Part shown: positions 37,091 to 61,960 of the stretch, one piece after another | Numbering within the stretch: position 1 is the first letter of the stretch | How the letters are laid out: each line of letters starts with the position of its first letter | Assembly (NCBI GenBank): GCA_011634665.1 | Contig: WAEK01000012.1 | Span: forward strand, 310,001-374,000 | Direction: 5' to 3' | DNA: 64,000 nt | Source: Mortierella sp. BCC40632 | Lineage: Eukaryota > Mortierellomycota > Mortierellomycetes > Mortierellales > Mortierellaceae | Notes under the pieces: generated by a model | Database searches by the model: none | What the model was told of the DNA's origin: nothing | What the model saw: the letters and a program-made list of their open reading frames with translations, nothing else | Position numbers and translations under genes: made by a program

Positions 37091-38887
37091 ATGGCCGAAA
37101 CTTCTCATGAAACATCGTCAGGGTATGTTGAGTTCCATTGACCAGCGACAAATCCCACCCCAGGTCACTCGACTAAATCAAGAGACACCAAACTCACTCA
37201 TCGCGGTCCTGTTCCTCTGAATTTACGGTGGACCGTTGGTTCGCCTAGGAGCCAAGATGTGGAAAACACTTTCAACATCCTTATTCTTGGTCCTTCACAA
37301 TCTGGAAAGTCTACTTTGATTGCGGCTATTGGTCAATACTTCCTCCCGGGCAGCAAGATTGATACCACTCACATCGGCGATGGAAATCTGTCGTGTACCA
37401 AGAATGTCCGAGTGGTGGAGTACATATCCGACTTTCCCGAATTCGAATTAATCGATACTGACCCTTCACAACAGAGATTTCACAGGCACCAGGATCCTAT
37501 CACCCAGGAGCAAACAATTCTAGACGAAGCCAAAATTGATATGTTTACGATCCTCGACGAGAGTTTCCAAAAGTACAGGAGAAATCTCAATTATTCTAAT
37601 GACCTAGAGGTCCGTCAAACTCATCCGACGTCTGAGAAAAAGTATCGATTTCGCATTTTGGACACCCCTGGACTGGATGATACTGATGGCCAGGACGTAA
37701 GAAACGTCGCCAATGTCCTTCAAGCCGTTTCCAAAGTAGAGGAGATTCACCTGGTTCTCATAGTGGTTTCGATCGATCTTCCTCTGACGCAAGGTCTCCA
37801 AAACGCTCTGGAGGACTATCGCAACATCTTTTCAGACATGAGGGGTCTTATTGCTTTTGTCCATACAAAAGTAGACTACCAGAGAATCCATCCAGAGAAA
37901 CCGCAATTCAGCAAATCTCTTGACAAGAGGAAAGAAGAGCTGAACAGGATCATGGGCAGAGAGATTCCCTTTTTCCTTATTAACTCGGATTTGGATGAGG
38001 ATCTGCCGGTTCACATCTATCTGAGGCAAGTTATGATCCAGTATGTCCTAGGGCTAGTCTGGTTGAATATCTCTGTTTCAGTAAATCGGATGCGATTATT
38101 CAAGACAAATCAGATGCGTACGGTCGATGCGTGCGTGATCAGCAACTGTAAAGCGGATCTCGCAGAGATCAAACGAGCAGCAACAGACTTTCAAGCCAAA
38201 GTCGACGCCAACAAGGCCAAGAGCACTGCAGAGAGGGCAAAGAAAATAGCCAGTCTTCGCCTCGATGTTACCGAGTACCAGAGTGACATTCAGGAGACAG
38301 AAGCAAATCTCTGTTACCTGGACACTGACGACCTTGTGTTCCTTGATGAAAGAGCGACCAGACAGGATTGGGGCTTTTCCGACGTTTTTGGAAAGTCTTC
38401 TACGGAGCTTGAGGTATCAGGGCTAGCATGTACAATCGATCTAGTTCGTGAGGAACGGTCTGGCTTTGAGATTGAGGCTTGTAAGGGTGGGAAAGGCCAC
38501 CGTTTCTGGGCTGCGAAGGTCAAGCGGAACTCATGGGTCCCTGGATCCTATCATGTAAAGCTGTTTGCTAAGTGTCGAACATGGTACCGTGAAAGAATCA
38601 GTCGACTAGAATATCATCTGAAGACTCAGAGAGAAGCACTCCAAGATCTTCTCGATGAGATTGCCAGACTTGAAGTATCGGACCAGACAGAAGAGGATGA
38701 GGAGACAAGGAGAGAGAGGCTGCAGATTCAGGATGACCAGATCAGGTGTCACAAGGTCGATGCATTTGCCAAGCGAGTTGCGCTCCAGATGAGCCTCTTC
38801 AAAGCGGTTGCGGAGGCTGGTGTGTATGAGGCTGGCCCAGCGGAAAGTGCACTTAAAGTAGCCGACTTTTATGCCAAATATGAATAG
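37091..38887 (+). CDS. GTPase 1: AIG1/GIMAP-like P-loop GTPase with coiled-coil tail
   Basis: Exons 37091-37122 and 37249-38887, joined in phase 2; 556 residues. G1 is GPSQSGKS (25-32), G3 DTPGLDDTDG (from 149) and G4 TKVD (217-220), so all nucleotide-binding motifs are canonical. The closest familiar class is the AIG1/GIMAP and septin-like branch of TRAFAC GTPases, judged from DTPGxxDT and the large helical C-terminus; that placement is an inference. Residues ~290-360 are coiled coil, then a conserved module (KGGKGHRFWAAKVKR ... GSYHVKLFAK), a second coiled coil and the C-terminal FKAVAEAGVYE ... ADFYAKY. The protein stops at YAKYE, about 15-17 residues before its paralogues, which continue with IPAxGEE. 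It is the leftmost copy of the array; only a 10-codon exon precedes the G domain. Its cellular role is unknown. Confidence 0.85.
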
Positions 38888-39747
38888 TTCCTGCTGACTT
38901 CCATATGCTCAAACAAGTATCCATGTGTGAACCATCCTAACTAGTTACGAGGAATGAGTAAGCTAATAAAAAAATATGCAAATATACAGCAGTCGAAGCA
39001 CTTAGAAAGAAAGAAAGAAAAAAGTCGAAGTACTGGTCGGGAACGTCGGCGATTCCCAGCCACCTACCTGGAGAATACTCTTGTTCATCTTTGTCCCTCG
39101 ATCTTTTTTTTTTTTTTTTTTTTTTTCGAGTAAGGAAATCACTTGCTTGCAAGTGACGACAGGTCGTGGTATCTCTCTTTTAATGACTACAACCTCCAGT
39201 TCCGACTTGGCTACTTCTTTTCATGCTCAACCATTGAAAAGACATTCCCCAGGCCGGATGGAAATGAAGTGCTAGGGCCTCCCAGTGGACGCCGGCAACA
39301 TGGAATGGTTTACCCAAGCAATGGCTCATGTCGACCCGTTGATCGAAGTATACTTTCCCGCATCACTTGTGCGCCCACTGTCATTCCACTGGATGCAGCT
39401 TTGCCCAAGGGGTAAAGGGCACGGACCTTCACCATACTTGTTTTACTGCAGCCTGCAGTGTTTGCATGATTTGTGTTGTGGTCTTCGCTCCGCCCTCATC
39501 GTGTCGTCTTCGCCCTCGCTCTCAACGCTGTGCCAGTCCTCTCCGCCCACCTTTGTACTCCGTCATCAGAACCTCTCTGCTTGCTGAGGACTCGTCAGCG
39601 GTGCCGGACCATCTGATCAAGTTCTTAAAAGAGTCCCTCGCCTTGCTCTTATCCTTTAACCCACTTCATCTCACTTCAACCAGCCTTAACTAACCCCAAA
39701 CTACTTTTTATTTCACACCTTCGCCACGTCTTACACCTCTGAGTGAT
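38888..39747. other. Intergenic between GTPase 1 and 2
   Basis: No gene seen. Holds the GTPase 1 3' side, a T24 run near 39103-39126 and the GTPase 2 promoter with a TTCGCCCT box. Confidence 0.5.
39509..39516 (+). promoter_or_regulatory. TTCGCCCT box upstream of GTPase 2
   Basis: TTCGCCCT about 240 bp before the coding start, with a CGCCCT variant just upstream and TTAAAA at 39624. Shared with the rest of the array. Confidence 0.5.
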
Positions 39748-39763
39748 ATGTAGGTGCATCACT

Positions 39764-39826
<63 letters not shown>

Positions 39827-41548
39827 GCCTCCTGTGCTCTTCATCCAGTCAACTAAGTTGTTCATAATACCCCTAAATCCATTAATAGGGAAGTGGCTAC
39901 TTCTTCCAACATGGAGACTACTGTAGAGCATGACTCCATTGTTGCCAGCGGCGCGAAAAAAACGTTCAATATCGTCATTATTGGTCCAACACAGTCTGGA
40001 AAATCCTCTCTGATCGAGGCCATTGGTCACTACTTCTTCCCTGATCACGAGGCGGATCACACTAATATTGGTGACGGCAACATGTCTTGCACAAAGGATG
40101 TCCGAATCGTCGAGTACGAATCTCACCTGCCAGAATACGATTTGGTAGAAGTTACCCCCGCACGCAGTCGTCCGACTCGAGTTGAGGCCCAGAGAAAGAT
40201 TGTCGATGTGCCTCAGCTCTTTACCAATGAAAATTACAAGCTATACAAGCAGATGTTTGATCGGACGAGTGGTCTAGAGATCTGTCCAAGTGCACCAGCA
40301 TCTTCAATCAAGTATAAATTCCGTCTCTTTGACACGCCCGGATTGGATGATACGGGTGGCAATGATGTGAAGAGTGTTGCCAAGATCTTGGAAGCCCTCT
40401 CCAGAGAAGGAGAGGTCCACATGGTTCTTGTCACTCTTGCGCTCAGTGTGCATCTATCTCAGGGAATTCAAGCAGCTCTGGAGGACTACCGCAACATATT
40501 TTCTGAGATGAGAGGTCTATTTGCGTTTGTGCATACCAAGTCGGACTACAAGAAGCTACACCCAAGTTCTGTGAAAGGCTGTCAGTCCCTTAAAGCTAGG
40601 AAGGAGATGCTAAACAGGATCATGGGCTTGAAAGTTCAACACCTCGTTATCGACTCAAACCTTGAAGATCTGTCTAGCCAACAATTTGGAACCTATCTCA
40701 TGTTTGACGCTATCCGAGAAGCTCTTTCATCGGCAAGCCTGAATGTGCCAGTATCGATGGATCGAATTCGAGTGAGCAAGACCAGCCGAATGCGAGAAGT
40801 GGACGCACTCGTAGTTAAAAGACAAAGGGGACTCATCGAGAAATTACAGAGAGGCACACACGATATTCAATCTGACGTCAACGAAGAGGCAATCAAAAAC
40901 CTTGGACTCAGGATTACAGAGATCATGTATAGGATGCGAGAAGATATGAAAAATCTATCCCACCTTGATACTGACGATCTCGAACTCATCTCTGAGGCAG
41001 AGATGAATGAGATGTGGGGAATTCTCGACCTCTTTCGGAGTGAAGAGTCTTCCAAAAAAATACTTGAGGTCATAAACCTGGAGAACACAATTGACGTTAT
41101 CCGCGAGGTGTCGTCGGGCGTCTCAATCAGAAAAGTGCAGGGGGGTCAAGGGCACAATTACTGGAGGGCAGAAATCGAACGATCGAGCTTTTCGAGGGGA
41201 CTATATCGAGCCAAGTTTTACTCTATACGTCGAAAGATGCATAAGACAGAGGTTCAAAGACTCAGAGAGGGCATTGAAAAGGGAAGGGAGACTCTCTTCG
41301 AGACCCATAACCGAATGGAGTCACTTATCACATCAGCCACGAGGGAAGAGCAGGCCAAGATTTACGAGACTCTCATGCGCGCCGAGCGACAGTCACTTCA
41401 CCTGGATCTGTTCAAGGCCATCGCGGAAGCTGGTGTGTACGAAGGCGAGATATCTAGCTGTGCTGAACGAGTTGCCGAATTCTACACAGAGTATATCCCA
41501 GCAAGGGGTGAGGAGATTTCCATGGAGCTCGTTCCAATCCCGAGTTGA
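39748..41548 (+). CDS. GTPase 2: AIG1/GIMAP-like P-loop GTPase, split start codon
   Basis: The second exon (39889-41548) opens with G GAA GTG GCT ACT. The preceding donor-like site ends in AT (39748-39749/gtaggt), so the initiator ATG is created by splicing; 553 residues. If the intron is not used, translation could start at the internal ATG 39911 with little loss. G1 is GPTQSGKS (33-40), G3 DTPGLDDTGG (from 149) and G4 TKSD (217-220), all canonical. Downstream are a coiled coil, the conserved module (QGGQGHNYWRAEIERS ... GLYRAKFYSIRR), a second coiled coil and the C-terminal FKAIAEAGVYEGEISS ... IPARGEE. The 139-nt intron contains a 58-base T run. Function unknown; nearest class as for GTPase 1. 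Confidence 0.85.
39768..39825 (+). repeat. 58-base T homopolymer inside GTPase 2 intron 1
   Basis: Uninterrupted run of 58 T between the AT/gtaggt donor and the attaatag acceptor. It makes up over 40% of the intron and could affect splicing or be an assembly length error. Confidence 0.95.
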
Positions 41549-41582
41549 AAAGTTAGTTTGAGTTGATTAAAGTCCTGTTGCC

Positions 41583-41617
<35 letters not shown>
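41583..41617. repeat. (CAT)n trinucleotide repeat
   Basis: About eleven CAT units just downstream of the GTPase 2 stop codon. Confidence 0.93.
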
Positions 41618-42022: not shown

Positions 42023-42118
42023 GGCTGACATCCCGTTCTACTTTTTCTTTACCACTACTTTCTTGCTTTTCTTCTCACTCGTTCTTTCACATTTGATTGC
42101 CACCACCCTTCAAAGACC

Positions 42119-44392
42119 ATGTAAGCCGAGCCCACCGGTCCTGTTCTTCTTGGCCATCAAGTGTATACTCCTCAGTTTATTGACATAGTATACATTCTTT
42201 ATTGCACTGAAGGACTAAAGACGATCCTTTTAACAAAGAGACTACCGATGGGCAAGAGCCTTTGGATGGCACTTCACACGAAGTCTCAGAGTACGTTTAG
42301 CTCTATTGACCTGGCCTTCTCTCCAAGTCGCACAGCCAAAGGAGACATCAAGAAACTTCAAGATCACTGACTTTGAAATCACTTCTCTAAACCTGTGGGA
42401 AAACTACTTCCTTAGGATTCGATCATATCAATCGGATAGAGAGAAAACTGCTGGCAAAGAGAAATCTCTAGAGTCAACGCAGAATACTCATATCAAGCAG
42501 ACAAATGGCTTTGGCAGTTCTTCAATTGCGAATGCAAACAATAAGTCAAATAGGTAAACTCAAACTTTTCAGGTCATCAGCCCCATTGAGCTCCTGACTC
42601 TTCTATCTTACGTGGGACCATCAAGACTAACTGCATGGATATGAATAACGTTTTCAGCTTTTCCAGTCATTCCGGGAGTCAGTCGAATGTGACCCGAGCT
42701 GGGAACCAAGAAGAGGAAAGCACCTACAATATCCTCGTCATTGGCCCTTCGCAATCCGGAAAGTCCACTTTGATTGCGGCCATCGGTCAATACTTCTTCC
42801 CAGGCAGTGAGGTTGATTTTAACTATATCGGCGATGGCAATCTATCTTGTACTAAGGATGTCCGAGTGGTGGAATATGAATCCCACTTTCCTGAGTTCGA
42901 GTTGATCAATTCAAACCCTTCTGGGTGGGGCATGTCAGGCAAATCTCTTGTCAGTCTGGATCAAGAAAAACCTGAGGAAACCAAGATTAATATTTCTACC
43001 ATCATTGGTGAAAAAGATTTCCGAAAGTACAGGCAAAAGCTAAACCAATTTGATGACCTAGAGGTGCGCCAAGTTCCCCCAGGTCCTCAGAAAAAGTACC
43101 GATTTCGCATCTTTGACACGCCTGGACTCGAGGATACTGATGGCCAGGATGTAAAAAATGTTGCCAATATCCTTGAGGCTGTTTCCAATGCGGACAAGAT
43201 CCATCTCGTTCTCGTGGTGGTTTCTCTCGGTCTTCCCCTGTCTCTAGGTCTTCAAACCGCACTTGCGGACTATCGCAATATCTTTGCAGATATGAAGGGT
43301 CTTATTGCATTTGTCCATACAAAGGTAGATTACGCGGTCATGCACCCAGAAAACAAAAAGTTTGTCGAGTCTCTTGCTACAAGGAGAGGAAGACTGGACG
43401 GTATCATGGGTCGGGAGATCCCCCACTTTGTGATCAACTCGGATCTCGAAGAGGATCGACCAGTCTGCATCTATCTGAGGCAAGACGCAATCAAGAAAAT
43501 CCTATCCATGGGTCGACTGAATGCCCCTGTCTCAGTGGATCGAATGCAACTAGTCAAGACGAAACAAATGGAGATGGTGGACAGCCGCGCTAAAATCAAC
43601 TGCGAGTGGATGATCCAAAATGTCCAGAGAAGGATGTATGATCTCCAGGCCAGCCTTGACGCAAGTCAAGTCAAAGCTGATGCAGAAAGGGCAAAGGAGA
43701 TATCCAACCTCCATCTCAAGGCAACCGAATATCGATACAACATTCGGGAAACAGAGTCAGAGATCAGCCGCAAGGATAGCGACGAGCTTGAATTCCTTGA
43801 AGAAAGAGAAACTAGTCAGGGCTGGGGCTTTTTTGACTTATTCAGCTTTACACGGTCCTCTACTACTTTAAGTGTGTCAAATCTGCCCTTCATAATTGAC
43901 CAGATCCGCGAAGAGGAGTGTGGCCTCGAGCACAAGTCTGTAGAAGGAGGATATGGCCACAATTATTGGACTGCAAAGGTCGTGCGGCAGGCCTATAATT
44001 CTGCATCTTACCGCGCAAAGTTATACACCAGGCGTCGAAGAAAATATGAAAAGGATCTCGTTTCGCTTCGGCAGACCTTTGATACGCAGAAGGAAGAACT
44101 TCAAGTCCTCCTCGATAAGATAACTGAGATTGAGGCTTTGGGTCCGATAGAAGAAGATGCTGAAACGACCAAGCAAAGATTGCTGATTCAGGCCGACCAG
44201 AGCAAGTATCTTGAGGTTGTCGCGCGCATTAGGCGGCAAACACTGCACCTAAATCTCTTTAAAGCAGTTGCGAACGCTGGTGTGTATGAAGGCGACCCGG
44301 AGGAAAGTGCAAAGAAGGTAGCTGACTTTTATGCAAGATATATCCCAGCTGAGGGAGAAGAAACCCCATTCGAAATAGTCCCAGTTGTGTAG
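42119..44392 (+). CDS. GTPase 3: AIG1/GIMAP-like P-loop GTPase, split start codon, four-exon model
   Basis: Exons: AT at 42119-42120, 42213-42290, 42416-42553 and 42658-44392. All three introns are phase 2, and the first splits the ATG as AT|G; 650 residues. The N-terminal ~95 residues are encoded by small exons and look disordered (MTKDDPFNKETTDGQEP). G1 is GPSQSGKS (102-109), G3 DTPGLEDTDG (from 226) and G4 TKVD (294-297), canonical. It is the closest relative of GTPase 1 by eye: LIAAIGQYF, GDGNLSCTK and RQ.P...KKYRFRI are shared. The tail contains the coiled coils, the YW module (EGGYGHNYWTAKVVR ... SYRAKLYTRR) and FKAVANAGVYEGDPEE ... IPAEGEE. If the 5' exons are not used, an ATG at 42635 gives a shorter N-terminus. 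Confidence 0.83.
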
Positions 44393-45098: not shown

Positions 45099-45127
45099 AG
45101 AGTTTCGCTTCTCTTTGGGGAAGACAA

Positions 45128-45552
45128 CAACTTATGCCAATGAGGGGATTTCCTCGCAATCCCCTAGCACCTTGGATCGCGGTATCTCTTCAAAGTAGGT
45201 CACCATGCGATCAATCGTCATCTAACAGATTAAGGGATCGTATTGATCTGCTTAAGAAAGATATGGAAAAGCAGAAACTAGTCATCCAGCGACTCCAAGA
45301 ACAGCTAGGAGCTCAAAATGCATCAGGGAAAAGTGAGAGTCCCGAGGAAGTGGAATTAGTGAGGGGTCGTGAATCCATCACGCGTGCTAGCCGAGAGACA
45401 CATAACCTCAATCTTTCCTTGGCTGTAGGGGAGGCCGGCGCGTATGAAAGAGATCCAGCCGATTGCGCTAGAAAGGTTGCTAGTTTTTATGCAAACTATG
45501 TTCCTGAAAAGGGCGAAGAGGCTGCATCGGAGGTGATAAGGATAGCTAGAAT
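45128..45552 (+). pseudogene. GTPase 4 relic: N-terminal exon fused to C-terminal coiled coil, G domain deleted
   Basis: Bases ~45128-45194 match exon 3 of GTPase 5 (46575-46644) with few changes, including the donor AA/gtaggt and the first ~27 intron bases. The sequence then jumps to CTAACAGAT, matching GTPase 5 coding sequence at ~48058. It follows the coiled coil (DLLKKDMEKQK, IQRLQEQLGAQ) and tail (NLNLSLAVGEAGAYERDPAD, YVPEKGEEA) to ~45552. The whole G domain and the YW module, about 1.4 kb in GTPase 5, are deleted. A frame remains open across the junction, and the CTAACAG at the join could act as an acceptor in the right phase, but the resulting intron would be only 34 nt. No first exon is left. 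Probably non-functional, although a G-domain-less protein is conceivable. Confidence 0.75.
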
Positions 45553-46198
45553 AAAAAAAACTTTTTTTTTTTTTTTTTTTTTTTACTCTATCAAGCTCAG
45601 TTGGGTCCTGATAGTCGATGTAACACCCAGCCACGCTTGACGACTGAAGCGATTGGACTGGGGCATGTTATTTTTTTTTTTTTGTTTGGGTGGGGAGGGG
45701 GGATAGAGATGGCCACCACACAGCCATACCCAATCTACACTTTTTTCAAGCTTAGTCATGGATCCCATGTGGTCATTTGATCAAGACTCGCTCTTTGGTT
45801 GAGTCATTTCAGCTTTTCCCGTCTACCATGTCGCCATATTTTTCGACAGAGTGCTCTTCTCCCACAGTTGACATATTCGTGAGAACACTGGTAGCCATGG
45901 GACACCCACCAACGCATCAACTCCGTAGTGGATAACCTTGTGTATTGCCCCCGAGTAACACACAAGAGCCCAATATTGTCCAGTCCTGCTTCGCCCTGCC
46001 TGAGTACCCTTGACCTCGCCCTCGCCCTCGCCCTCCTCCTCGCCCCCTCCTCTTCAACCTAGGAAACTGGTCGCTTCTGTTCAGAAAATCTCAGAGTATT
46101 TAATGACTTTCCTACTTACCTCTCTTTTTGCTCCATATCTTGTTCCAACTATCCCTTCGATTGATCTCTCACTTTATCTTGCTCTTCGCTTTCTCAAC
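45553..46198. other. Intergenic with duplicated 3' flank and GTPase 5 promoter
   Basis: From ~45553 to ~46050 this region is homologous to the 3' flank of GTPase 5 (~48380-48890), for example GGGTCCTGATAGTCGATGTA and GGTAGCCATGGGACAC in both. It ends in the GTPase 5 promoter. No gene seen. Confidence 0.65.
45990..46102 (+). promoter_or_regulatory. TTCGCCCT box and TATTTAA box of GTPase 5
   Basis: TTCGCCCT at 45990-45997 with CTCGCCCTCGCCCT repeats following, and TATTTAA at about 46097-46103, ~102 bp before the ATG. Confidence 0.55.
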
Positions 46199-48390
46199 AT
46201 GACACGTCCGGATCCTAAGTAAGTGGAATTTCGATAGTTGGTGCTTAACTTGAGTGAATAGTCTTTATCTCACAGGCAACTGAACTTCAAACTACATCTT
46301 TGATTTTAAAACAGTAAAGGGAGCTCGTCTTTCAATAAGACCACTGGAAACTCACGTTCCCCTGAACGTGCTCCACATGAGGCCATAGGAGAGTAAGTCA
46401 GTCACGCCCTTTCGCCTTGACACGAGTCTCGCTCAAAAGCCAGTTGGATACTTTAGATAAACGTCGCTCAAGAATACTAACAGTGACTGCATATCTGACC
46501 CCTTTATAGTATCTTCGCCAATTTTGGAATCACCTCTCGCCGTGAAGGGAGGCCACCAAGAGCTCCTCAGGGATTAAGAACTTATGCCGATGAGGAGACT
46601 TCCTCGCAATCCCCTAGCACCTTGGATCGCGGTACCTCTCCAAAGTAGGCCACCATGCGATCAAAAGTCATTCCTTCTCTTTTCGGATGATGTAGATAAG
46701 CTAATAGCCATTCACTTACGTGCTTTTAATGTATAGTGACCAAAGTAGCCATGCAAGCTCGATGGCAGCCGAGAACCGCCAAGAGAAAAGGGATATAAAT
46801 ATCCTTGTCATTGGGCCTTCTCAATCCGGAAAGTCTACGCTGATTGAAGCCATTCTCCAGTACTTGGATCCAAGGAGAGAAGTCGATCGCTCCAAAATCG
46901 GAGATGGGAATGACTCATGCACCGACGAAGTCTTTGTCAGCGAGTTAAGGTCTCACATTCCTGAATATGAGCTGGTTTATGCCAGGAATAAGGCGGGAGA
47001 TTCAGGCAGTGCCTTATGGACACTAGAAGGTACAGCCGATGCTGAGGGACTTCTTGGTGCTGTGAAGTTTGAGACATACAAGAAGAATATCAATCGTGAG
47101 GACATGAATGTCGTCATGCTCGAACAAGATCACCCGATCGAGTACAACTTCCGTATCATTGACACCCCGGGGCTGGACGATACAAATGGGAGGAATGTGA
47201 GGAACGTTGTCAAGATCTTGGAGTCTCTATCCAAGGGACAAGACATCGATCTAGTCATTTTTACCTTCGAGATGGGTAGATCGATTTCGCAAAGTGTGCA
47301 AGAGGCCTTAACGGACTACCACAACATCTTTTCAGAGATGCGAGGTCTTTTCGTGTTTGTCCACACGAAAGTGAATTACGAAAAGCTACATCCACACAGC
47401 AAGTATTTCGACGATATCTCCAAGAGGAAGAGCATATTTGACCGAATCATTGGTCGAGGGGTTCGTCATTTAGCTATTGACTCGGATTTTGAAGAGGACA
47501 GACCAGTCCGAATCTACAAGAGACAGTCCGATATCCGAGAGCTCCTTTCTCTTGCGGATATGAATGTCCCGGTGTCGACCAGCCGAATGCGACTATCTAA
47601 GACTCAGTGGATGCGTCAAGTGGATGAGATCGTTATCAATAACTGCAAGCTATCTCAGAAATTGATTCAACAAAAGATTCTCAGTACTCCACAGCATAGG
47701 GGAAGTGCTGCTGAGCAAAGGGTAGAAAGCACCAGGATCGAGCTCAACAAGAACCTTTACGACTTCCGCGAGAAAACAGCCGATCTCAAATACTACGAGA
47801 CTGATGCTATCGACATCCTTGGTGAGATTACTAGCGACGAAAACTGGGGAATTCTCGACTTAATACCTTCATCCAGACAACGTAAAACACTCGAGATCAG
47901 AGATTTGGAATGTGCGATTGACGCGATTCGTGAGACAAGTAATAATTACAAGGTCAAGCATTTGGGAGGAGGGATCAACGACAATTACTGGAAAGTAGAG
48001 ATTAAGAGAGTTGCACTCAGGAACGGATGCTTCTCTGCAAAGCTGTATGCCAAGCGCTCTAACAGATGTAGGGATCTTGTTGATCTTCTTAAGAAGGATA
48101 TGGAAAAGCAGAAACAAGCCATCCAGAGTCTCCAAGAACAACTAGAAGCTCAAGATACGCCTGGAAAAAGTGAAAATCCTAAGGAGGAAGAGGAGTTACT
48201 GAGAAATCTTGAAACCATCACGCGTGCTAGCCGAGAGACACTTAATCTCAATCTCTTCTTGGCTGTAGCAAAGGCCGGTGTGTATGAAGGAGATCCAGTC
48301 GATTGCGCTAGAAAGGTTGCTAGCTTTTACGCAAACTATGTTCCTAAAAAAGGGCGAAGAGGCTGCATCAGAGGCCATTCTAGTGTTTAG
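46199..48390 (+). CDS. GTPase 5: AIG1/GIMAP-like P-loop protein, G4 Asp replaced by Asn
   Basis: Exons 46199-46218, 46315-46392, 46510-46644 and 46737-48390, all introns phase 2; 628 residues. The first ~95 residues are a disordered N-terminus from three small exons (MTRPDPNKGSSSF; RAPQGLRTYADEE). G1 is GPSQSGKS (104-111), G3 DTPGLDDTNG (from 220) and G4 TKVN (288-291). The Asp that reads the guanine base is Asn here. Downstream are coiled coils, the YW module (GGGINDNYWKVEIKR ... GCFSAKLYAKR) and FLAVAKAGVYEGDPVD. The very C-terminus is frameshifted relative to paralogues: in CCTAAAAAAGGGCGAAGAGG one extra A turns the expected GEEA tail into GRRGCIRGHSSV and a stop. It is the intact sister of the GTPase 4 relic. 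Confidence 0.83.
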
Positions 48391-48975: not shown

Positions 48976-51294
48976 ATGACACATTCAACCTCCAAGTAAG
49001 CAAGGCTTTGATGATAAACACTCAAACCAGATGATCTATTATGTCGCTAATTGACAAACTCCTTGCTTGAAACAGCAGGGTTAATGGTGTTTTTTGCAAT
49101 GATGGGGCAATCAATGAGCAAGACTCTATCAATGTGATAGTCAGCGGGTAAATTACGTTCTCATAGCCTGCCTCAAGTTTTGATTCAAATTGAGGAGCAT
49201 CTAGAGCGATATAAAGTCTGACCATGATAATGTCTTTACCTTTTGTAGGACTGTTAGCTCTCTTAGAGGCCGTTTTATTGACGCTGACGCTAAGAAACAA
49301 GCAATCGGTCATAAGAGAGTCAATAGTGTCAGCTCTGGAACAATCTCACCGCCTCCCAAGTGCTCGGACGAAGGCCCGAAACAGTGGAGAAATCAAGGAT
49401 ATCAGGTCGATCAGGAGAATAAACCTTGGTCAATTGAGCAAGGATCCTATGTCTCGAGGCCAAGTCCTCCAGACTTCATGCCCAAGCCGAGCCCATTCAG
49501 GTATGGCATGTTCAGTCAGAATGGCTGCTATACCTCCTATTCGATCTAAAGTCAACTTATATCATGGTTTAGTGATAAATACTAACTGTCCGTTCGCCTG
49601 GTATATCATTAATTTGTAGCGGAAAAAATAACGGGGCAAGCGTGGGCTTTACTAATGACTATAAAGCGAAAAAGGATATCAACATACTTCTTATTGGGCC
49701 ATCTCAATCCGGCAAGTCCACGTTGATTGAGGCCTTCCGCAAGTATCTCGATCCGAAGAGAGAAATCGATCACAGCAAAATCGGGGATGGCAACAAATCG
49801 CACACCAACGATGTCATTGTCAGCGAGTTTACGTCTGTCATTCCTGAATATGATCTGGTATATTCCAACAACCAATACCACGCCACACCAGGATATCCTA
49901 AGAACACATCATCAACAAAAGACGGCTTAGTCGATTTCGAGGGACTCCTAGGTGTTGCGAATCTGAAAATGTATCAGAAGAATATCAATCGCGAAGATGT
50001 GCAAATCATCACACGAAGTCCAGAGCACTTGATTGAGTACAACTTCCGTATCATCGATACCCCAGGTCTCGACGACACCGAAGGCAGAGATGTGAAGAAT
50101 GTCGCCAAGATCTTGGAGTCCCTATCCAAAGTGCAAGACATCGATCTGGTTCTTTTTACCTTTGCGATGGGTATAGCTCTAACACCAAGCGTGCGAAGAG
50201 CCTTAGAGGATTACCGCAGTATCTTCTCAGAGATGAGAGGACTCGTTGCAGTTGTTCACACGAAGGTGAATTACGAGAAACTTCATCCAGGTTCTAAGGA
50301 CCACAGTGGCCTCATTAGTAGAATGAAAGATCTGGACAGTACCATGGGCCGAAAGATCCGTCATTTTGCTATCGACTCAGATTTCGAGGAGTACAGACCA
50401 GTCCGAATCTACAAGAGACAGACCGACATTCGAGAGCTCCTTTCTCTTGCGAATTTAAATGTCTCAGTGTCGACCAGCCTAATGCAACTTTCCAAGACTC
50501 AGTGGATGCGTCAAGTGGATGATCTGGTCGTGGGTTTCTGCATATCCCAGGAATCGATTCAAAAGCAGAATTTCACCTCATCTCTAGCCAGAAAGAACAC
50601 TGTTAGACGGAAGGCAGGGAAAAACAAGCTCGAGCTTAACGAGGTCCTCTACGATTACCGCGAGAAACGATCCAAGCTCAAAAGTCTCGACTCTAATTTC
50701 CTCGAGTTCCTTGTTGAAGTTTCCAGTGACGAAAGTTGGAAGGTCCTTGACTTGTTCTTAACGACCAGGCCTCTTAAGACACTTGAGGCTACAAACTTGG
50801 AATGTAAAATTGATGCGATTCGTGAAATGAGTAACGGTTACAAGGTCACATCTTCGGAGGGAGGACTTGCCTTCGATCACTGGAGAGTAGAGATCAGGAG
50901 AATGGCGTACAAGAACGGGACCTACAATGCAAAGTTGTATGCCAAACGTTCTAATATGTTCAAAGCTGATATCGATAAGCTCAGGGAAGAGGTGAAAGAG
51001 CTGGAGATAACTATCCGGGATCTTCGCAGGCAATTAGGAGCTCACGGTTCACCGGTCGAAAGCGAGAGTCTGGAGGAAGAGGCGAAACTTTTGAAGGGTC
51101 TCGAGACCATCACGCGCGCTAGACGTACCACACTCCACCTCAATCTCTTCCTGGCTATAGCAAAGGCTGGCGTGTACGAAGGGGATCCAAACGACTGCAT
51201 TAAGAAGGTTGCCGACTTTTATGCAAACTATGTCCCAGAAGAGGGCGAGGAAGCTTCATTGGAAACCATCCCTAGTGTCCAGGATCAATATTAA
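48976..51294 (+). CDS. GTPase 6: AIG1/GIMAP-like P-loop protein, G4 Asp replaced by Asn
   Basis: Exons 48976-48995, 49076-49147, 49249-49500 and 49620-51294, all introns phase 2; 672 residues. Exon 2 could start at 49076 or 49079 (tandem CAGCAG). The ~130-residue N-terminus is disordered and unlike those of GTPase 7 and 9 (SSGTISPPPKCSDEGPKQW). G1 is GPSQSGKS (141-148), G3 DTPGLDDTEG (from 261) and G4 TKVN (329-332); as in GTPase 5, the base-reading Asp is Asn. Tail: coiled coils, YW-type module in which Y is H (EGGLAFDHWRVEIRR ... GTYNAKLYAKR), then FLAIAKAGVYEGDPND ... YVPEEGEEASLE. By eye it is closest to GTPase 5 (YKKNINRED / YQKNINRED, EYNFRIIDTPGLDDT). Confidence 0.83.
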
Positions 51295-52086: not shown

Positions 52087-52151
52087 ACAATCAACAGCCT
52101 CCCCACCCTTGTCTGCCTCTTTCTTCCTTTCCTTGCTCCGCTCGCCCAACC

Positions 52152-54586
52152 ATGACTCTCCCAATTCCTGTGTAAGTAGAAATTCAATAATCCTTACTGG
52201 CCCCGAGTATATCTGTCACTCGCTCATTCATGTTGAAGCAGCCCACACTCCGAACACTTCAACAATGAGACATTCAAGTAACAGGACTCCCTCTGGGCTA
52301 ACCATGGGAGTCTAGTGCCTCCTATGGTCATGGATGTTACTCTCAAGGTGGCTTTGGCATAGGGAGATGGGAAAAAAGGCCACTAACAATGATCGCTCTC
52401 TATATTTTTTACAGCGCGGTTGGCCCTTCTGAGGACAGCTACCTCCAACCAAGCAGTGACCAGCTAGGGAACGATCAAGGAATGGAAGGAATAGGTCCCA
52501 GTGCCAAAATAGAAGCTTCCTCACATACCCCTGACCAGTCGATCAAAAGTACAGCTTTCATGGGAAAATGTGAGATGCAAACAACAGGTCAAGTGGATAC
52601 TCTACAATTAGCTACTCAGGACCCTCACGACACCAAAACAGCACCCTCCAACATCACGCGAGATCCAGATGCGATCGACGAGGCAGAAGTTATCAGTCAG
52701 AGCTACCACAGTGCCGTTTCAAGGTAAGCGGTCTTGTGCGATCATAAGCCTTTAGTCAACTAGCGCGACAGTCTCATGGACCGAAACCAAGAGCATCTCT
52801 TCAAGACCATCTGATAGCCTAGGGTCCAGAGTAACTACTAACCGCAAGCTCAATCCTCAATTCTGATGACGTCAACACATACAGCCACAACCTTGGTCAG
52901 GAGAGCGCAAACCCTGTAGAGACCAAGGACCTCAATATCCTTGTCATTGGACCATCTCAATCCGGAAAGTCCACGCTAATTGAGGCGATTCGCAACTACC
53001 TCAATCCTGAGAGAGAAATCGACTACAGTAAAATCGGGAATGGCAGTGAGTCGTGCACTAAAGAAGTATTTCTTAACGAGTTTACATCCCACATCCCAAA
53101 ATACGAGCTAATTCATCCCAGCGCGACAAACCAAACGATGGAGGGGAATCCTCAGGGTATTCTGGGGACAACAGGAACTTTAGTCGATATTGAGGGACTC
53201 CAAGGCGTCGCAAACTGGCCACTTTACCGGAGCACCGTTAATCGAAGCGATCTGAAGATCCGTTTGTGCGAACAAGACCCTCCAGTAGAATACAGATTTC
53301 GTATCCTCGACACTCCAGGACTCGAAGACACAGATGGCCACGATGTGAGGAACGTTGCCGAGATCCTGAAAAATCTGTCCACAGTGGAAGAAATACACTT
53401 GATTCTTATCACCATCGCGGAAGGCACACCCTTGACGCAAGGTTTACAGAATGCACTCAAGGATTATTGTGGCATTTTCTCCGAGATGAATGGCCTGTTT
53501 ACATTTGTCCACACAAAGGTGTCGTACGACAAGCTGCATCCAGGATCCCAGAGATATTACGCCGATCTTACTACGAGGATGGAAAAGCTGGACGAGATCA
53601 TGAATCAGTCTGTTAGACATGTCACCATCGACTCGGATTTTGATGAGGACAGGAAGTTTTGTATCTATATGAGATGGAATGCTATCCGCGATCTATTTTC
53701 TCAAGTGAACCTGAACCTCCCAGTGTCTACAAGTCAAATGAAGCTAATGAAAACAAAATGGATGCGTGTAGTGGACTCGATTGTAATCAAGGAGCAGGAG
53801 ACAAATTCGAGAGATATTCGGCGGCAGCTCCTCGATGTCCAGTCCAAGAGGAATATTTTCCGAACCCAAATTGAGGCAGCCAGAACGAGAGAAATTGCCG
53901 CACTCAAGATCAAGATCGGCGAAGCACGATTTGAGTACCGTGAAAAGCAGGTAGAACTCAATGGGGTTGACTCGGACGTTCTCGAGTTCCTCTTTGAGAG
54001 GTCTAGCCAAGAGCCACGGACAATACTCGATTTTTTCCCATCCAAGAGGCCTCAAATAACACTCGAGGTGCCAAAGCTGGAGTTCAAAATTGCTGATATT
54101 CGGGAAGAGAGGAATGGCTACGATATCGTAAGCTCTAAAGGAGGGATAGATGAAGATCACTGGAAGGTCGTGATTGAGCGTAAGGTGTTCCGACAAGGAG
54201 ATTATCGAGCCAAGTTTTACGCCAAGCGCTGCAGTATACACCAAAACAAGGTGAACGAACTCAAGCTTGAGGCACAGCAAAGGAAGGAGACAGTCTCGAA
54301 GCTCTACAAAAATGTTGAGGCCTTGGAAGGATCTATTGAGAACCATGATGACGCTGAGATAGTGAAAGAGAAAAAACAGCTCGAAGAAGAGCTGAGATTA
54401 TGTCAAGAGGCTCTTACACGTGCCAAGCGAGAGTCGCTTCATCTCAACCTCTTCAAGGCTGTTGCGGAAGCCCGCGTGTATGAGGGAGAAGCGGCAAAGT
54501 GCGCAGAAAAAGTCGCAGACTTTTACAAAAACTACATACCAGCTGATGGTGAAGAGGTCTCGTTGGATGCAATTCTTAGTGCTTAG
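52152..54586 (+). CDS. GTPase 7: AIG1/GIMAP-like P-loop protein, G4 Asp replaced by Ser
   Basis: Exons 52152-52171, 52239-52277, 52415-52723 and 52885-54586, all introns phase 2; 689 residues, the longest of the array. The ~100-residue exon-3 module is homologous to exon 3 of GTPase 9: HTPDQSIKSTAFMGKCEMQT compared with HTPGHSAESTAFMGMCEIRT. G1 is GPSQSGKS (145-152), G3 DTPGLEDTDG (from 265) and G4 TKVS (333-336). The motif before the switch region reads IGNG instead of the IGDG of all other copies. Tail: coiled coils, a YW-type module with D-H in place of N-Y (KGGIDEDHWKVVIERK ... GDYRAKFYAKR), then FKAVAEARVYEGEAAK ... IPADGEEVSLD. Confidence 0.83.
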
Positions 54587-55085: not shown

Positions 55086-57237
55086 ATGTCCAGGTAAGCA
55101 GAGTCTCCTTTTTTTACACACAAACTTGGTTCCATCTGCCATCTCAGAGGCGGTGGCCATTTCTTTATTTTTATTTTAGTCTCGTGTTCTTCTATTTGCG
55201 CTTCAGACAGCCGATTTGTTTGTTTTTCGGCCAGAGTCGGATGATCCTGCTTCAAGCTAGCTAAAGTCTAAAGACTTGGGATCTCACGACCACTGATGGT
55301 GACCACGTAAATGTATTCTCTATAGTGCAACTGCCTCATTTGAAAGTAGCACCTCCCATCTCTGTGATGAGCGATCTAGGAGGGAGCACAGTGTTGGTTC
55401 ATCTACTAAGGTGAGAACCGCCCCATATACCCTTGGCCAGGTCATAATTGCTCCATCTTTGGGAGAGTGTAAGAAAAAACAACTGACCAAAATATGAATC
55501 CCTCCAGTCAACTAAAGAAAGTCTCTATCTTTCGAGGGGATCTTCTAATGGGTCGGATTTGCAAACTATCAGCAGTCAGAACAACCTCGATTTTCTGTCA
55601 AGGTAAGGCGTAATGAGTGATTGCTGGATACATTCCACACGCTGAGTGGCGTAGACTAATCGCGTTCATTCACGCGCGATGTCTCTTAAACATAAAGCCG
55701 TCATCGGTACCTGAGGCTAATGAGTTCAATTAGACGTCCAAAAGACATCAATATTCTTGTTATTGGGCTCTCCCAGTCCGGAAAATCCAGGCTAATTGAA
55801 ACCATCTGCGGGTTTCTCGATCCTGGGAGGGCAATTAATCTCAGTAACATTGGCGATGGCAATGAGTCGTTTACCAAGGATGTTTCAATATACGAGGTCA
55901 CATCCCGCATTCCAGTGCTCGAGCCATATCCCGACATCGCTCAAAACGACGATCGCCTCGGAGGCCTTGAAGAAAGGGTCAGTTTTGCCAGCAACTCAGA
56001 AGCTACACCATCTGAGCCAGATTCTAGGACCAAATACAAATTTCGTATCATCGACACCCCAGGATTAGAGGACACCGAAGGTCACGATGTCAAGAACGTT
56101 TCCAAGATCCTCGAGGCACTATCCATAGTAAAAGAAATCCACCTGATTGTCCTCACTATTGCACAAGAAACACTTCCAACAGAAGGGGAACAGAAAGCGC
56201 TCAGTGACTATCGCAACATCTTTTCGGGTCCAGGGATGAGAAGTCTATTTGTATTTGTTCATACAAAGACAAAATACGAAAAGCTACACCAAGGAGATTT
56301 CATCTTAAAACACAAATCGAAGGTGACAATTCTTAACAAACTCGTAGGCTGGAAAGCTGAACACCTCATCATCGACTCAGACCCTCCCGAGGATCGCCCA
56401 AGATTTGTCCATGAGAGCCGGAAAACTCTGCGAGCTATTCTTTCTAAGGCGCTGACGAATGCTCCTGTCCCCACAAGTCGAATACGACGGTTCAAGACTT
56501 ATCAAATGCGTGAAGTGGATAAACTTGTACTCAGGAGTTGTTCGATGACCCTCAAATCGCTCGAAGGCTACCGTACTTCTCTTTCCAAAAAAATTGTTGA
56601 TCTTGAGTCCAAGTACAAAAAAGTCGAGTCCAAGTGCAGTGCCAGACAGGAGGACATCAATTTTTTCGAGTCAGATGTTCTCGAACTTCTTGGTGCAAGA
56701 TCCAGCTTTGAAAAATGGAGTATACACAAAAAACCCGGGAAGAAACGAGTTAAAAAAATGCTTAGGATATCGGAGCTGGATTGCGCAATTGATCGTGTTG
56801 AGATAAAGGAGTGCACTGGCTACAATGTCCTAAGTACCGAGGGAGGGGAAGGCTATAATTATTGGGCAGTTGTCATCGAGCGGGACCCATTTGAGGATGG
56901 AAGCTACTTAGTAGAGTTTTCTGCAAAACGTAGCAACAGGTACCGAAAAGAAATTGACGATCTGAAGGAGAAGCAGTTACGTGGAGAAAAGGAAAAAGAA
57001 ACTCTTAGATTAGAAAAAGAAAAAAAGGAGTCGAGACTTCGGGATATCGAGGAGAAATGTCGTATAGCTGAAGGGCATGCCAAGAGAGAGTCACTTAACC
57101 TCGATCTCTACAAGGCCCTTGCAGTTGCTGGTGCTTATGAAGGCAGTCCAGCAAAATGTGCAGAGAAAGCGGAAGAAGTTTACGGGAATTTCTGGACCCC
57201 TGATAGCAAGGAGTCGTCAACGCACATGAATACGTAG
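55086..57237 (+). CDS. GTPase 8: divergent AIG1/GIMAP-like P-loop protein, G4 Asp replaced by Lys
   Basis: Exons 55086-55093 (ATGTCCAG), 55326-55410, 55508-55602 and 55698-57237; 575 residues. Introns 1 and 3 are phase 2; intron 2 is phase 0, the only exception in the array. The 8-nt first coding exon is chosen because its phase fits exon 2; an upstream ATG at 55037 is out of frame. G1 is GLSQSGKS followed by Arg (86-93), where all other copies have Pro at position 2 and Thr or Ser after the Ser. G3 is DTPGLEDTEG (from 182). G4 is TKTK (252-255), so nucleotide binding or specificity is doubtful. The tail keeps the YW module (EGGEGYNYWAVVIERD ... GSYLVEFSAKR), a highly charged coiled coil and YKALAVAGAYEGSPAK. 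The last residues differ from the IPAxGEE end of the others. It is the most divergent intact copy. Confidence 0.75.
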
Positions 57238-58613: not shown

Positions 58614-58648
<35 letters not shown>

Positions 58649-58868
58649 AGAACACACTGAGGCAGTAGATAGAGAAAGCGAGGGATGATTGAGGGTAGTG
58701 AATGTGAGAAAGGTTGATGGAAAGAACAAATGTTTTGGTCGCTAACGTGGACATGCCAAGGAATGAAGAATCAGGGTGAAAATGAAGAGAAGGGTAAAAC
58801 AGAGATGAGACACGCAAGCATCCGATCAGCGCACCGGCTTCAGGTCCAGAGATTGAGAATGGGGTCAA

Positions 58869-59321
58869 TTAGCCTAGGGAAAAGGTCGTCAGCATCTTTG
58901 GGCAGAAGGTAAAGAGGGATCCCCGCCCATGAAGGCCCCTGCACAAATTTCCTGTCCTTTTAGCCCTGTAAATGCAGTTTTTGCACTTTGGACAGTTCAG
59001 CCGACCGATGTCGGTTTGGCCTACGAACTCCGCCACAATGTACCCAGGCGCTCGGTTAACTGAAGCTAAAGAGAAGTAGAAAAGAAGCTGCTGTTGCCAA
59101 CTTGCTTTTTGTACAAGGCAGGATTGAGATGAGCTATGCAGGGAAGCCAATCTCATTCTTGAGGAAAACTGCCCTAGACCAGCCCCGATAGCAACCTTGT
59201 TGTTGTCGTTCCTCTTGGCCCCTGTCAACATGGTGGGACCAGATATTTGCTCCGTAGGAGATATTCCACACTTAATGAGTAGTTTTGCCTTGAGTACCTT
59301 CATCTCTGCACTTGAGCTCAT
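58869..59321 (-). CDS. Weak hypothetical ORF
   Basis: 150 codons from ATG 59321 with no family match. It has a short Cys-containing stretch (LNCPKCKNCIYRAKR). No splice or promoter evidence. Likely spurious or a gene fragment. Confidence 0.15.
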   Translation of the reverse strand: MSSSAEMKVLKAKLLIKCGISPTEQISGPTMLTGAKRNDNNKVAIGAGLGQFSSRMRLASLHSSSQSCLVQKASWQQQLLFYFSLASVNRAPGYIVAEFVGQTDIGRLNCPKCKNCIYRAKRTGNLCRGLHGRGSLFTFCPKMLTTFSLG

Positions 59322-59587
59322 TGATAGATTTGCATTGCATGGTGCGGTAATTTGATTGACTGACTCTGTTCTTAGTTGTCGCTACAGGCCATCTCTTTCA
59401 GCCCATACGCTATTCCATCGATTAATCAGGTATGCATGTACCACCTTTACATGGCAAGACCAACACTGCTACGCCGACAGCTGTAGACGGTCTCCTCTAG
59501 GGGTTAAATGAGTCTGATGGTAACCATTGAGACGAGAAATGCAAGGTCCTAGGATGGCAAGTCAGAGCCCAGGCTTGCTCCGCTTTA

Positions 59588-59640
59588 TTAACTTCGCCCT
59601 TGTCCTACTGTATGGAGACTGTCTTCATTTGTGTATAAAA
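59588..59640 (+). promoter_or_regulatory. Extended TTCGCCCTTGTCCTAC box and TATAAAA box of GTPase 9
   Basis: The 21-base box at 59588-59608 is identical to that of GTPase 8. A clear TATAAAA lies at 59634-59640, 93 bp before the split start codon. Confidence 0.6.
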
Positions 59641-59726
59641 GCTCGTCCCTTTGCGACGGCCCAGCCCAAATCAGCTCCTTTCTTTCTAGCCAACTCATTC
59701 ATTTCATTACAGCCTCCGAAGCGTCC

Positions 59727-61960
59727 ATGTAAGCTGAAAAATTGTCTTTGCCTGAGACGGGTTCAATAGTTGTATCTTCCTCTTTAACTGAATGCTCATT
59801 ACTATCTTCTGGATTGCAACAGGACCACAAATTACTATCTCAGAAATGAGATTACGGAAATGGAAGGAGAACCTACCCGATCCCCACAAAGGTATTTTTT
59901 AGAGTGACCAGAGCCCTTGGAAACGCTACGAGATCCCACGACCACTGACAGTAGTGGCGTACCCGAAACCCCTTTTTAGTATTCCTGGTCCTTCTCGAGA
60001 TGGATATTTCCGACCTAACGGTGAGCAATCAAATGGCGATCACGGGGCCGGCCCAAGTACCAACTCGATGACCTACCTACATACTCCTGGTCACTCTGCC
60101 GAGAGCACAGCTTTCATGGGAATGTGCGAAATAAGAACAGCCGAACACGATGATTCTATCCGGTCATCCGAGTGTGTTAGTTTAGCAATTTCGGGAGAAT
60201 CAGACTTGAATACGATCTACCACCCAAACGACCTTGGAGCCTCCTCAAGGTATGGTTCTTTCAATGAGTATGAGTAGCTTGTTTCACAAGTAGTAGTGAA
60301 GAATTTACCAAGATCATTTACATATAACCCTTGTTTATACAGTCGTAATGTAAGCCAAAGGTCTGCGACTTCAGCCATGAGCTCAGTAGAGAACAGGGAC
60401 CTCAATATCCTTGTTATTGGGCCATCTCAGTCAGGAAAGACCACATTGGTCGAAGGCATTCGCAGCTACTTCGATCCAAAGAGAAAAGTCGACTATAGCA
60501 GGATCGGAGATGGTACTAGGTCGTGCACCATGGAAGTCGTTGTCAACGAGCTAGTCTCCCTCATCCCAGAATATGAATTAATTAACGATGACCCCCTCCT
60601 TCGGGGTCAAGTCGACAATACCGGAGGAAACTCGGGAGAAAATACTAAAAAGATCGACTTGGTCAAACTTCAAAACTCCTGGAGTTTGTACGATTATCAG
60701 GCATGCCTCAATCGAACCGAGAACCTGGTAATTCGCTCATGCGGGACAACAACTCCACCAACCATGTACAATATCCGAGTCATCGACACCCCAGGACTAG
60801 AGGATACTGACGGTCGCGACACACTGAACATTACCAAGATCCTCGAAGCACTATCCACACCAAAAGATATTCATCTGGTTATCATTACCTTTGACGTGGA
60901 CTCGTCACTCTCTAAAAGGCGCAAAATAGTCCTACGGGACTATCTCAACATCTTTTCGGAGATGAGGGGCTTATTTGTATTTGTCCATACGAAAGTAGAG
61001 GCCGATAACCAACACTTTGAAGCCCACTCTTATACCGAAAAGCTTGACGCAAGGAAGAGAATCCTGAACGATATTATGGGGTCACCTATCGAACACTTCT
61101 TCATTGATACAAACCTAGGGGAGCGAAGACCAGTTCGTGTTTTTATGAGGCAAGCTGGTATTGGAGCCCTCCTTACTCGGGCGAAGGAAAGCCGTCCAAT
61201 ATCTACGAACAAGATGAGACTGGTCAAGACCAATTTTATGCGTGAGGTCGATGAGCTCGTAATTAGAGACTGTAATCAACAAATTGAAATGATTAAGGAG
61301 CGAACTGGACTACTAGAAAATCGCGAGGCAAACCTAAGAATTCAAGAACTCATGGCAATCTCAGAGCGCGATAAAAAACAGAAGGAACTCAAAGAGCTGG
61401 ATACTGATGATCTCGATCACCTTGGAGAAAGGTCGAGTAAGGAAGGCTGGCAGATGTTCGACATGCTCCCCTCCGCAAGACCTAAGAAATTACTAGAGAT
61501 ATCGGGACTGGTTTGTGGCATTGACGATATTCAAGAGGAGAGGAATGGCTATCGAGTTAGAAGCTCGGAAGGAGGGAAAGGTCGCAATCACTGGAAAGTA
61601 GTCATTGAGCGCAAAGTGTTCAGAAAGGGAGTTTACCGAGTCAGGTTTTTTGCTAAGCGCCGCAACATTCACCAAGAAAAGATAGCCAGACTGAAGGTCG
61701 ATGTTGAAAGTCTGGTGAAAACTGTTGATTGTCTCTCCCAAGAGATAAAACAGTGTGAGGAAAGGGGTGCCAGGACAGAGGACAAAGCACGTGTCAAGCT
61801 AGAGGAAAACATGGCAAAGTTACTTATGATTAGAACAGGTGCCGAACAGGAAACTCTTCCATTCCATCTCTTCAAGGCTGCTGTGAACACGGGCATGTAT
61901 CAAGGCACTCCATGCGAATGCATGGAGAAAGCAATCAAATTTTATAGTGAGAACAATTAA
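59727..61960 (+). CDS. GTPase 9: AIG1/GIMAP-like P-loop protein, split start codon, G4 Asp replaced by Glu
   Basis: Exons: AT at 59727-59728, 59823-59891, 59980-60249 and 60343-61960, all introns phase 2 and the first splitting the ATG; 652 residues. Exon 2 then reads TG-less: G ACC ACA AAT TAC, giving MTTNYYLRNE. The exon-3 module is homologous to that of GTPase 7. G1 is GPSQSGKT (140-147), G3 DTPGLEDTDG (from 262) and G4 TKVE (330-333). Tail: coiled coils, a YW-type module with Y to H (EGGKGRNHWKVVIERK ... GVYRVRFFAKR), then FKAAVNTGMYQGTPCE. It ends at KFYSENN, without the IPAxGEE tail. It is the rightmost copy of the array. Confidence 0.83.

Follow-up and report, generated by a model that had tools for sequence, protein, structure and literature searches.

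Organisation of the GTPase gene array

The stretch of DNA analysed here (the window, 64,000 nucleotides), from the soil fungus Mortierella sp. BCC40632, carries eight stop-free frames of 513-600 aa, W1 to W8, and one internally deleted copy, Wg, which lie head to tail on the + strand between positions 37,142 and 61,960 (Table 1). A sequence-only reading had described a tandem array of eight GTPases plus a gutted copy on one strand, and this was fully confirmed, although the range it gave (37,091 to 61,960) holds merely one among several clusters of the family. W2 to W8 align with W1 across nearly the whole length at 34-53% identity, far beyond chance. Pfam scanning of 14 other frames in the window found no defence-type domain, and none of the Rfam or tRNA results for the window belongs to the GTPase family.

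Table 1. Members of the array and their positions in the window.
Feature	Position	Strand	Description
W1	37142..38887	+	GTPase copy, 581 aa open frame; G4 is TKVD
W2	39857..41548	+	GTPase copy, 563 aa; G4 is TKSD
W3	42590..44392	+	GTPase copy, 600 aa; related to B cluster (C12:399,652-414,490)
Wg	45126..45640	+	Gutted copy; W4-like 5′ block (45126-45221) and C-terminal tail
W4	46199..48390	+	GTPase copy, inferred 4-exon model; stop-free frame 46708-48390
W5	49579..51294	+	GTPase copy, 571 aa; copy modelled; related to C and D clusters
W5 beta module	50701..50946	+	Model residues 375-456, six predicted strands; core GG....W and G.Y.AKLYAKR
W6	52835..54586	+	GTPase copy, 583 aa; pairs with L. selenospora BGW38_004539
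W7	55696..57237	+	GTPase copy, 513 aa; pairs with first half of BGW38_004538
W8	60278..61960	+	GTPase copy, 560 aa; pairs with second half of BGW38_004538

The 5′ block of Wg matches the 5′ region of W4 (46576-46671) at 87 of 96 nt (91%) and joins directly to a W4-like C-terminal tail (83-86%), so that the G domain, the helical hairpin and the beta module are missing. For W4 itself, GT-AG introns in the sequence suggest exons at 46199-46218, 46315-46392, 46510-46644 and 46737-48390, with the frame open to the terminal stop. The predicted N-terminus, MTRPDP, matches that of Lunasporangiospora selenospora P0012; P0002 has MTRPEP. In the window and 11 loci of clusters B, C and D, which extend just ∼1.5 kb past the matches, an MTRP start-exon pattern was found only before W4. 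In W1, W5 and W6 no in-frame Met precedes the P-loop, so that an additional exon further upstream is probably required.

Swapped N-terminal exons and shared promoters, both claimed earlier, were not borne out when the 1000 nt before each frame were compared. No exon swap was found, and upstream homology joins just W4 and W5 (313 nt, 79%, ∼670-980 nt before the frame), Wg and W4, and, in short patches of 44-50 nt, W6 and W8 as well as W7 and W8. The segment shared by W4 and W5 may be part of the 3′ side of the copy before it.

Predicted architecture and nearest folds

In the models, the N-terminal G domain is followed by a long hairpin of helices; a small beta module of six strands comes next, and another pair of long helices leads into a short helical end of the protein. 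The W5 model places helices at residues 308-337, 341-370, 462-488 and 498-514. Alignment and models together support the helical (coiled-coil) middle and the C-terminal helical tail that had been proposed, and the conserved YW/GxYxAK module was recovered as GG....W and G.Y.AK.

By Z score, the structures closest to the G domain are Toc34, the best fold match, Toc33, GIMAP7 and GIMAP2. The G1 and G3 motifs are kept in all eight window copies, but G4 (TKxD) is intact only in W1 to W3, the D being replaced by N, N, S, K and E in W4 to W8, respectively; the claim of shared G1, G3 and G4 motifs thus stands for the first two. The AIG1 profile (PF04548) passes its Pfam cut-off in W7 only (28.5 bits versus 27), the other seven copies scoring 13.5-25.9, and GIMAP/AIG1 membership is therefore not established, for all that the nearest fold is Toc34/GIMAP. 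Dynamin_N (PF00350) exceeds its 27-bit cut-off in W1, W4 and W8, W2 lies at a printed 27 and four copies fall below, and a LeoBC profile matches the P-loop stretch of W1 (E 2.5e-8). Sequence searches of the PDB gave nothing significant (best E 0.046 and 0.56), and one of them found no GIMAP. NACHT, NB-ARC and repeat families are absent from the Pfam matches of the eight window copies up to E 1; nSTAND_NTPase5 was matched by 2 of 17 members (best E 0.056). G-domain matches are also seen in giant-virus proteins in BFVD.

Profile and structure searches with the C-terminal half returned no Pfam family over the cut-off and no significant Foldseek match. Structural matches of the beta module are weak: the likeness to H-type lectins and other small beta sandwiches falls below the level that would mean more than a common arrangement, sequence searches gave it no support, and no lectin family is among the best 25 of 79 Pfam families in the profile search. 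No transmembrane-like segment was detected: in all 24 copies of the family the hydropathy peak falls inside the G domain or at its end.

GIMAP/IAN (AIG1) proteins of animals and plants, in which a catalytic arginine lies at the dimer interface and a conserved box between G3 and G4, share the nearest G-domain fold and the long helices that follow it. Some members of that group have a C-terminal membrane anchor. The window copies differ in the beta module between the helices, in the variable G4 and in the lack of an anchor-like segment. This lack, together with the long helical C-terminal half and its beta module, also separates the family from the chloroplast import GTPases Toc34 and Toc33, and the fungus has no plastid. 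Dynamin-like GTPases (bacterial BDLP, LeoABC) likewise have a G domain followed by long helices, and BDLP and a bacterial dynamin pair are in the Foldseek list, but Toc and GIMAP chains rank first by structure and the helices of the family are interrupted by the beta module. IRG proteins are not among the best 50 structural matches listed, which excludes nothing.

Family clusters, recombination and selection

The family numbers 24 copies and two tail remnants; besides the array it comprises three further clusters within 180 kb on the same contig and one on contig C4. Degenerate copies are included, and B3 has a split frame. Just the 7999 candidates with most shared words were scored in the first two homologue searches, so the counts of relatives are lower bounds; the named full-length relatives belong to Mortierellaceae, apart from one in an ascomycete, and few copies were found in other Mortierellaceae. 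A search with the C-terminal half of W3 scored 1633 candidates and gave three proteins, two of them new. W6, W7 and W8 form one-to-one pairs with L. selenospora and look like old orthologues. Conservation of this kind is part of what had been named beforehand as speaking against an immune-type family. The other copy types expanded separately in this fungus and in Lunasporangiospora, where related types pair among themselves (10961/10963 and 4540/4541). The cluster expansions were not seen in the nearest sampled relative, of which the sample is incomplete.

Judged from its sequence as assembled, C1 is a recombinant (mosaic) of C2 and C3. Among the 28 window pairs, W4/W5 alone exceeded every permutation (0 of 500 reached) in a simplified GENECONV-like run-length test; in the smaller set W4 to W6, its run was reached in 31 of 2000 permutations.

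Omega is below 1 in all 25 fits, with purifying selection on the G domain and the C-terminal helices. The highest values, still below 1, occur in the beta module in sets with B copies, and a faster beta module could reflect relaxed constraint. In the set comprising C, D, W4 and W5 the beta module (0.48) has no higher omega than the G domain (0.50). An omega of 1 for the beta module is clearly rejected in 3 of 5 sets, being worse by 20.4 log units in C/D/W4/W5, 6.4 in W1/W3 plus B and 6.4 in E1-E4; these differences are not strictly nested because the fixed-omega runs used a kappa of 2.0 and not the estimated kappa. Several copies outside the window have lost P-loop or DxPG residues and look enzymatically dead from their motifs, and their frames remain open, free of stops versus 5.2-9.0 on average under simulated neutral decay. 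The C-terminal half of C2 and C3 is still constrained.

Possible function of the family

We tentatively read the family as soluble Toc34/AIG1-like ('paraseptin') GTPases whose genes have multiplied in clusters in a fungus of the Mortierellaceae. By analogy with Toc34 and GIMAP, the G domains would dimerise in a nucleotide-dependent manner, and the helices would link dimerisation to the beta module, which may bind a target, though this last step is a guess. Target binding would have become more diverse as copies duplicated and recombined with one another and as the beta module of the B cluster came under loose constraint, and copies without the P-loop Lys or DxPG would be retained as partners or decoys that do not hydrolyse GTP. 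The likeliest use would be cell-autonomous recognition of something variable, such as a mycovirus, an endobacterium or a non-self hypha. That these are dimerising GTPase switches with beta-module target recognition and pseudo-GTPase partners, with a plausible role in defence or self/non-self recognition, is possible, if short of probable. The pattern resembles that of immune-recognition genes in the expanded Toc34/GIMAP-fold family, recombination, open-frame pseudo-GTPases and beta-module omega in the B sets; omega below 1 throughout, the rejection of an omega of 1 for the beta module in three sets, its lack of a raised omega in C/D/W4/W5, one-to-one conservation of W6 to W8 and permutation support for just one of the 28 window pairs count against it.

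Non-adaptive birth and death, by unequal crossing-over, conversion, relaxed constraint and decay, would need no recognition role, and conversion alone explains the C1 mosaic and the runs in the B cluster. The absence of any omega above 1, the degenerate copies, the two tail remnants and the split frame of B3 also fit. However, the stop-free frames with broken G motifs, the constraint on C2 and C3 and the separate pairs of related types in L. selenospora argue against it, and we consider it somewhat unlikely. A conserved cell-biological GTPase, serving as a scaffold of membranes or organelles in the manner of septins, Toc proteins or dynamins and amplified by chance, with W6 to W8 as its old core, would account for the one-to-one pairs, the purifying selection, the Toc34 fold and the weak Dynamin_N and LeoBC matches. 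It sits poorly with the pseudo-GTPases and mosaic copy of the B, C and D clusters, the lack of a membrane anchor and the few copies found (lower bounds) in other Mortierellaceae, and is less likely still. That a filamentous fungus has clustered genes which recombine could also point to allorecognition (hyphal-fusion incompatibility) specifically, not antiviral or antibacterial defence, but no HET-type or cell-death domain appears in the Pfam results (up to E 1) for the window copies. We consider this reading very unlikely.

The Mortierellaceae lineage hosts viruses and endobacteria, and a clustered, recombining family with pseudo-GTPases would be an experimental handle on non-self recognition there. 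Among the titles and abstracts listed in open-licence literature, on GTPase/NLR immunity in fungi as well as on families of this kind, none described such a GTPase family. It is conceivable, though on balance doubtful, that early-diverging fungi own a GIMAP-like recognition system, with a diversifying beta-module reader shuffled by recombination and pseudo-GTPase partners or decoys. The family adds a protein half without a named family, and even if its role is ordinary the clusters make a good test case for telling diversifying recognition apart from neutral birth and death.

Beyond fungi, one Kineosporia locus was found in prokaryote genomes (29% identity over 83 G-domain residues), and none of 22 pattern matches in viral contigs is related to the family. 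The same genome contains, on contig C19, another tandem cluster of P-loop GTPases, which are short and AIG1-like. In a profile comparison with the family, the alignment covers just 47 columns, around the P-loop, at a probability of 33%; and, unlike the copies described here, 8 of the 11 frames have a hydrophobic segment at their end.

Family copies in the genome

The GTPases of the window belong to an expanded Toc/AIG1-like family with its own distinctive C-half, the part beyond the G domain. The eight copies, W1-W8, can be aligned over almost their full length and share 34-53% identity with the first copy. Searching the 49.9 Mb assembly (62 contigs; window at G000:C12:310001-374000) with W5 gave 28 matches, which represent 24 copies and two tail remnants. 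Copies outside the window form clusters B to E (see table). B3 consists of two frames that overlap, and the core of the six-stranded beta module seems to have been lost from E1-E4 and is retained in E5.

Locations of family copies and other features
Feature	Location	Strand	Remarks
W1-W8	window 37,142-61,960	+	eight long open frames
Wg	between W3 and W4		internally deleted copy, tail remnant; 96-nt block resembling W4 5' region (87/96 nt), then directly C-terminal tail
B1-B5	C12:399,652-414,490	-
C1-C3	C12:457,437-468,156	one +, two -
Tail remnant	C12:515,349-515,537
D1-D3	C12:517,188-526,177
E1-E5	C4:2,532,388-2,547,603	four -, one +
Second GTPase cluster	G000:C19:593,997-625,752		11 open frames
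Kelch-type gene	window 2697-3707	-
GLE1-like exon	window 13739-14428	+
DASH Spc19	window 17401-17895	-
Ferric reductase	window 23279-24988	-
Open frame, 1020 aa	window 27085-30147	-
28S rRNA fragment	window 57326-57474	+	between W7 and W8
28S-related segment	window 57323-57513
Repeat-like segment 1	window 58877-59030
Repeat-like segment 2	window 59048-59228	+

An inferred four-exon model of W4 begins MTRPDP, and similar starts are found in the Lunasporangiospora selenospora proteins P0012 (MTRPDP) and P0002 (MTRPEP). No Met is present upstream of the P-loop in W1, W5 and W6. The sequence-only reading had proposed swapped N-terminal exons; this is unsupported because, among the copies searched, the MTRP pattern precedes W4 only.

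G-domain motifs, selection and possible role

All eight window copies contain G1 (GxxQSGKS/T) and G3 (DTPGL). The full G4 motif, TKxD, is present in W1-W3 and all five B copies, and the Asp position is N, N, S, K and E in W4 to W8, respectively. Motifs are broken in several copies elsewhere. G1 is GPLRSGNS in C1 and C3, and GSSQSKKS in C2, and DTPG is missing from all three. D1 has GPPASGRS as G1, D2 has ETPG as G3, E2 lacks both motifs and E3 carries GDSISGKG and ETPD. Neutral decay simulated at the observed distances introduced a mean of 5.2 to 9.0 stops per frame, and stop-free runs per 1000 numbered 4 (C2/C3), 0 (D1/D2), 1 (E2/E1) and 1 (C3/D3). Because a stop-free outcome is so rare under this model, the broken-motif frames appear to be maintained as proteins. 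In C2/C3, dN was below dS in 997 of 1000 bootstraps for the C-half, which is constrained, and in 938 of 1000 for the G domain, where constraint is less clear. The last ∼20 residues of C2 differ from those of C1 and C3, which looks like a frameshift.

Omega by region from codon-model fits to five sequence sets
Set	G domain	Hairpin	Beta	C-helices
B1-B5	0.49	0.73	0.865	0.43
B2/B4/B5	0.545	0.69	0.76	0.42
W1/W3+B (six sequences)	0.34	0.525	0.65	0.41
C2/C3/D/W4/W5 (seven sequences)	0.50	0.69	0.48	0.58
E1-E4	0.37	0.40	0.53 (columns largely eroded)	0.39

The beta module is the fastest region in the sets with B copies, but not in the C/D set. Fixing its omega at 1 (kappa fixed at 2.0 in these null fits) cost 1.2 log units in B1-B5, 0.9 in B2/B4/B5, 6.4 in W1/W3+B, 20.4 in the C/D set and 6.4 in E1-E4; for the B1-B5 G domain the loss was 38.4. 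Pairwise beta ratios reach 1.34 (B4/B5) and 1.37 (B3/B4); for both pairs the bootstrap interval of dN-dS includes zero. The four remaining pairs among B2-B5 give 0.59-0.79. Omega exceeded 1 in none of the 25 fits, whole-length fits included, and positive selection on the beta module is shown by neither the codon fits nor the pairwise counts.

The protein anatomy fits a switch, in which the G domain would dimerise, as suggested by Toc34 and GIMAP, the helices would act as a lever, and a target would be bound by the beta module as the likeliest site. Pseudo-GTPase copies, open frames lacking P-loop or DxPG residues, with a constrained C-half fit as partners or decoys. The pattern of evolution would be consistent with a role in defence or self/non-self recognition; neutral birth and death of copies is the strongest alternative to such a role. 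Among the open-licence papers listed as matches for such a family or for GTPase/NLR immunity in fungi, none concerns this family.

Recombination and family history

C1-C3 differ at 402 polymorphic sites, where C1 matches C2 at 46%, C1 matches C3 at 53% and C2 matches C3 at 1%. The longest agreeing runs, of 92 and 99 sites, were equalled in none of 2000 permutations. C1 is C3-like over residues 1-180 (96-100% nucleotide identity) and at its end (95-97%), and C2-like over residues 211-270 (98-100%) and 331-510 (99-100%); residues 271-330 are assignable to neither (87-89% to each). C1 can thus be read as a putative recombinant of C2 and C3, and an assembly error is a possible source of the same mosaic. 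Among the 10 B pairs, B2/B4 and B4/B5 lay beyond all 2000 permutations, and the B4/B5 synonymous distance is uneven (G domain 0.22, hairpin 0.86, beta 0.37, C-terminal helices 1.12). W4/W5 was the sole one of 28 pairs in W1-W8 beyond all 500 permutations; in the smaller W4-W6 set its run was matched in 31 of 2000. In D1-D3 and E1-E4 every pair was reached in some permutations, the fewest being 125 and 27 of 2000, respectively.

Homologue searches found at least 17 proteins, mainly from the Mortierellaceae genera Lunasporangiospora, Mortierella, Entomortierella, Gryganskiella, Modicella, Benniella, Podila and Linnemannia (the last short, 316 aa). One ascomycete homologue, from Bombardia, was among the matches listed (profile E 4.4e-42, 22% identity). 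Two further matches are P0014 (295 aa), which covers 46% of the query, and P0015 (E 1.2e-5), which covers 10%. The nearest among the matches listed are L. selenospora BGW38_004538-004541, which have consecutive tags and lie on contigs of equal length, and BGW38_010961/010963. These relatives point to a Mortierellaceae fungus as the source of the window.

In a tree of 42 rows, W6 groups with BGW38_004539 (100/100), and the first and second halves of BGW38_004538 pair with W7 and W8, respectively (each 100/100). Together with the tag order, these pairings suggest a collinear arrangement of the W4/W5 to W8 segment in L. selenospora. B1-B5 form a single clade (100/98) near W3 and BGW38_010961/010963, and a joint clade of C and D (100/98) adjoins BGW38_004540/004541, inside the W5 type. 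The groupings with L. selenospora point to an old core with separate later expansions; with a protein database clustered at 90% and searches that give lower bounds, that species may also have copies of the B, C or D kind. Bombardia, E5 and the short Linnemannia protein have long branches and are poorly placed, and the position of W2 is weak. Two family units per chain occur in L. selenospora BGW38_004538, Entomortierella BGZ46_002275 and Podila BG000_008243, which are either real fusions or joined gene models.

Other features of the window and genome

Positions 1-36000 of the window contain ordinary genes (see table). The 1020-aa frame has no match in either Pfam (to E 0.01) or NCBIfam (to E 0.1). 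Two small minus-strand frames at 58877-59228 have no Pfam match; this region is probably an old repeat, segment 1 having one relative at 71% and segment 2 five dispersed relatives at 72-76% (C16, C12, C6, C11 and C4). The 28S-related segment has at least 39 more copies (83-85%) on many contigs, two of which, when examined, sit inside truncated 3' ends of 28S (619 and 530 nt), and is perhaps a dispersed 28S-derived repeat.

The second tandem GTPase cluster represents another family. Its frames are 236-711 aa long, 7 of the 11 being 316-386 aa, and 8 of the 11 have a hydrophobic C-terminal segment. Three frames compared with Pfam gave MMR_HSR1 over the cut-off and AIG1 near it. One frame has two G domains, another a long N-terminal repeat, and two are near-identical up to the point where the shorter diverges and stops.
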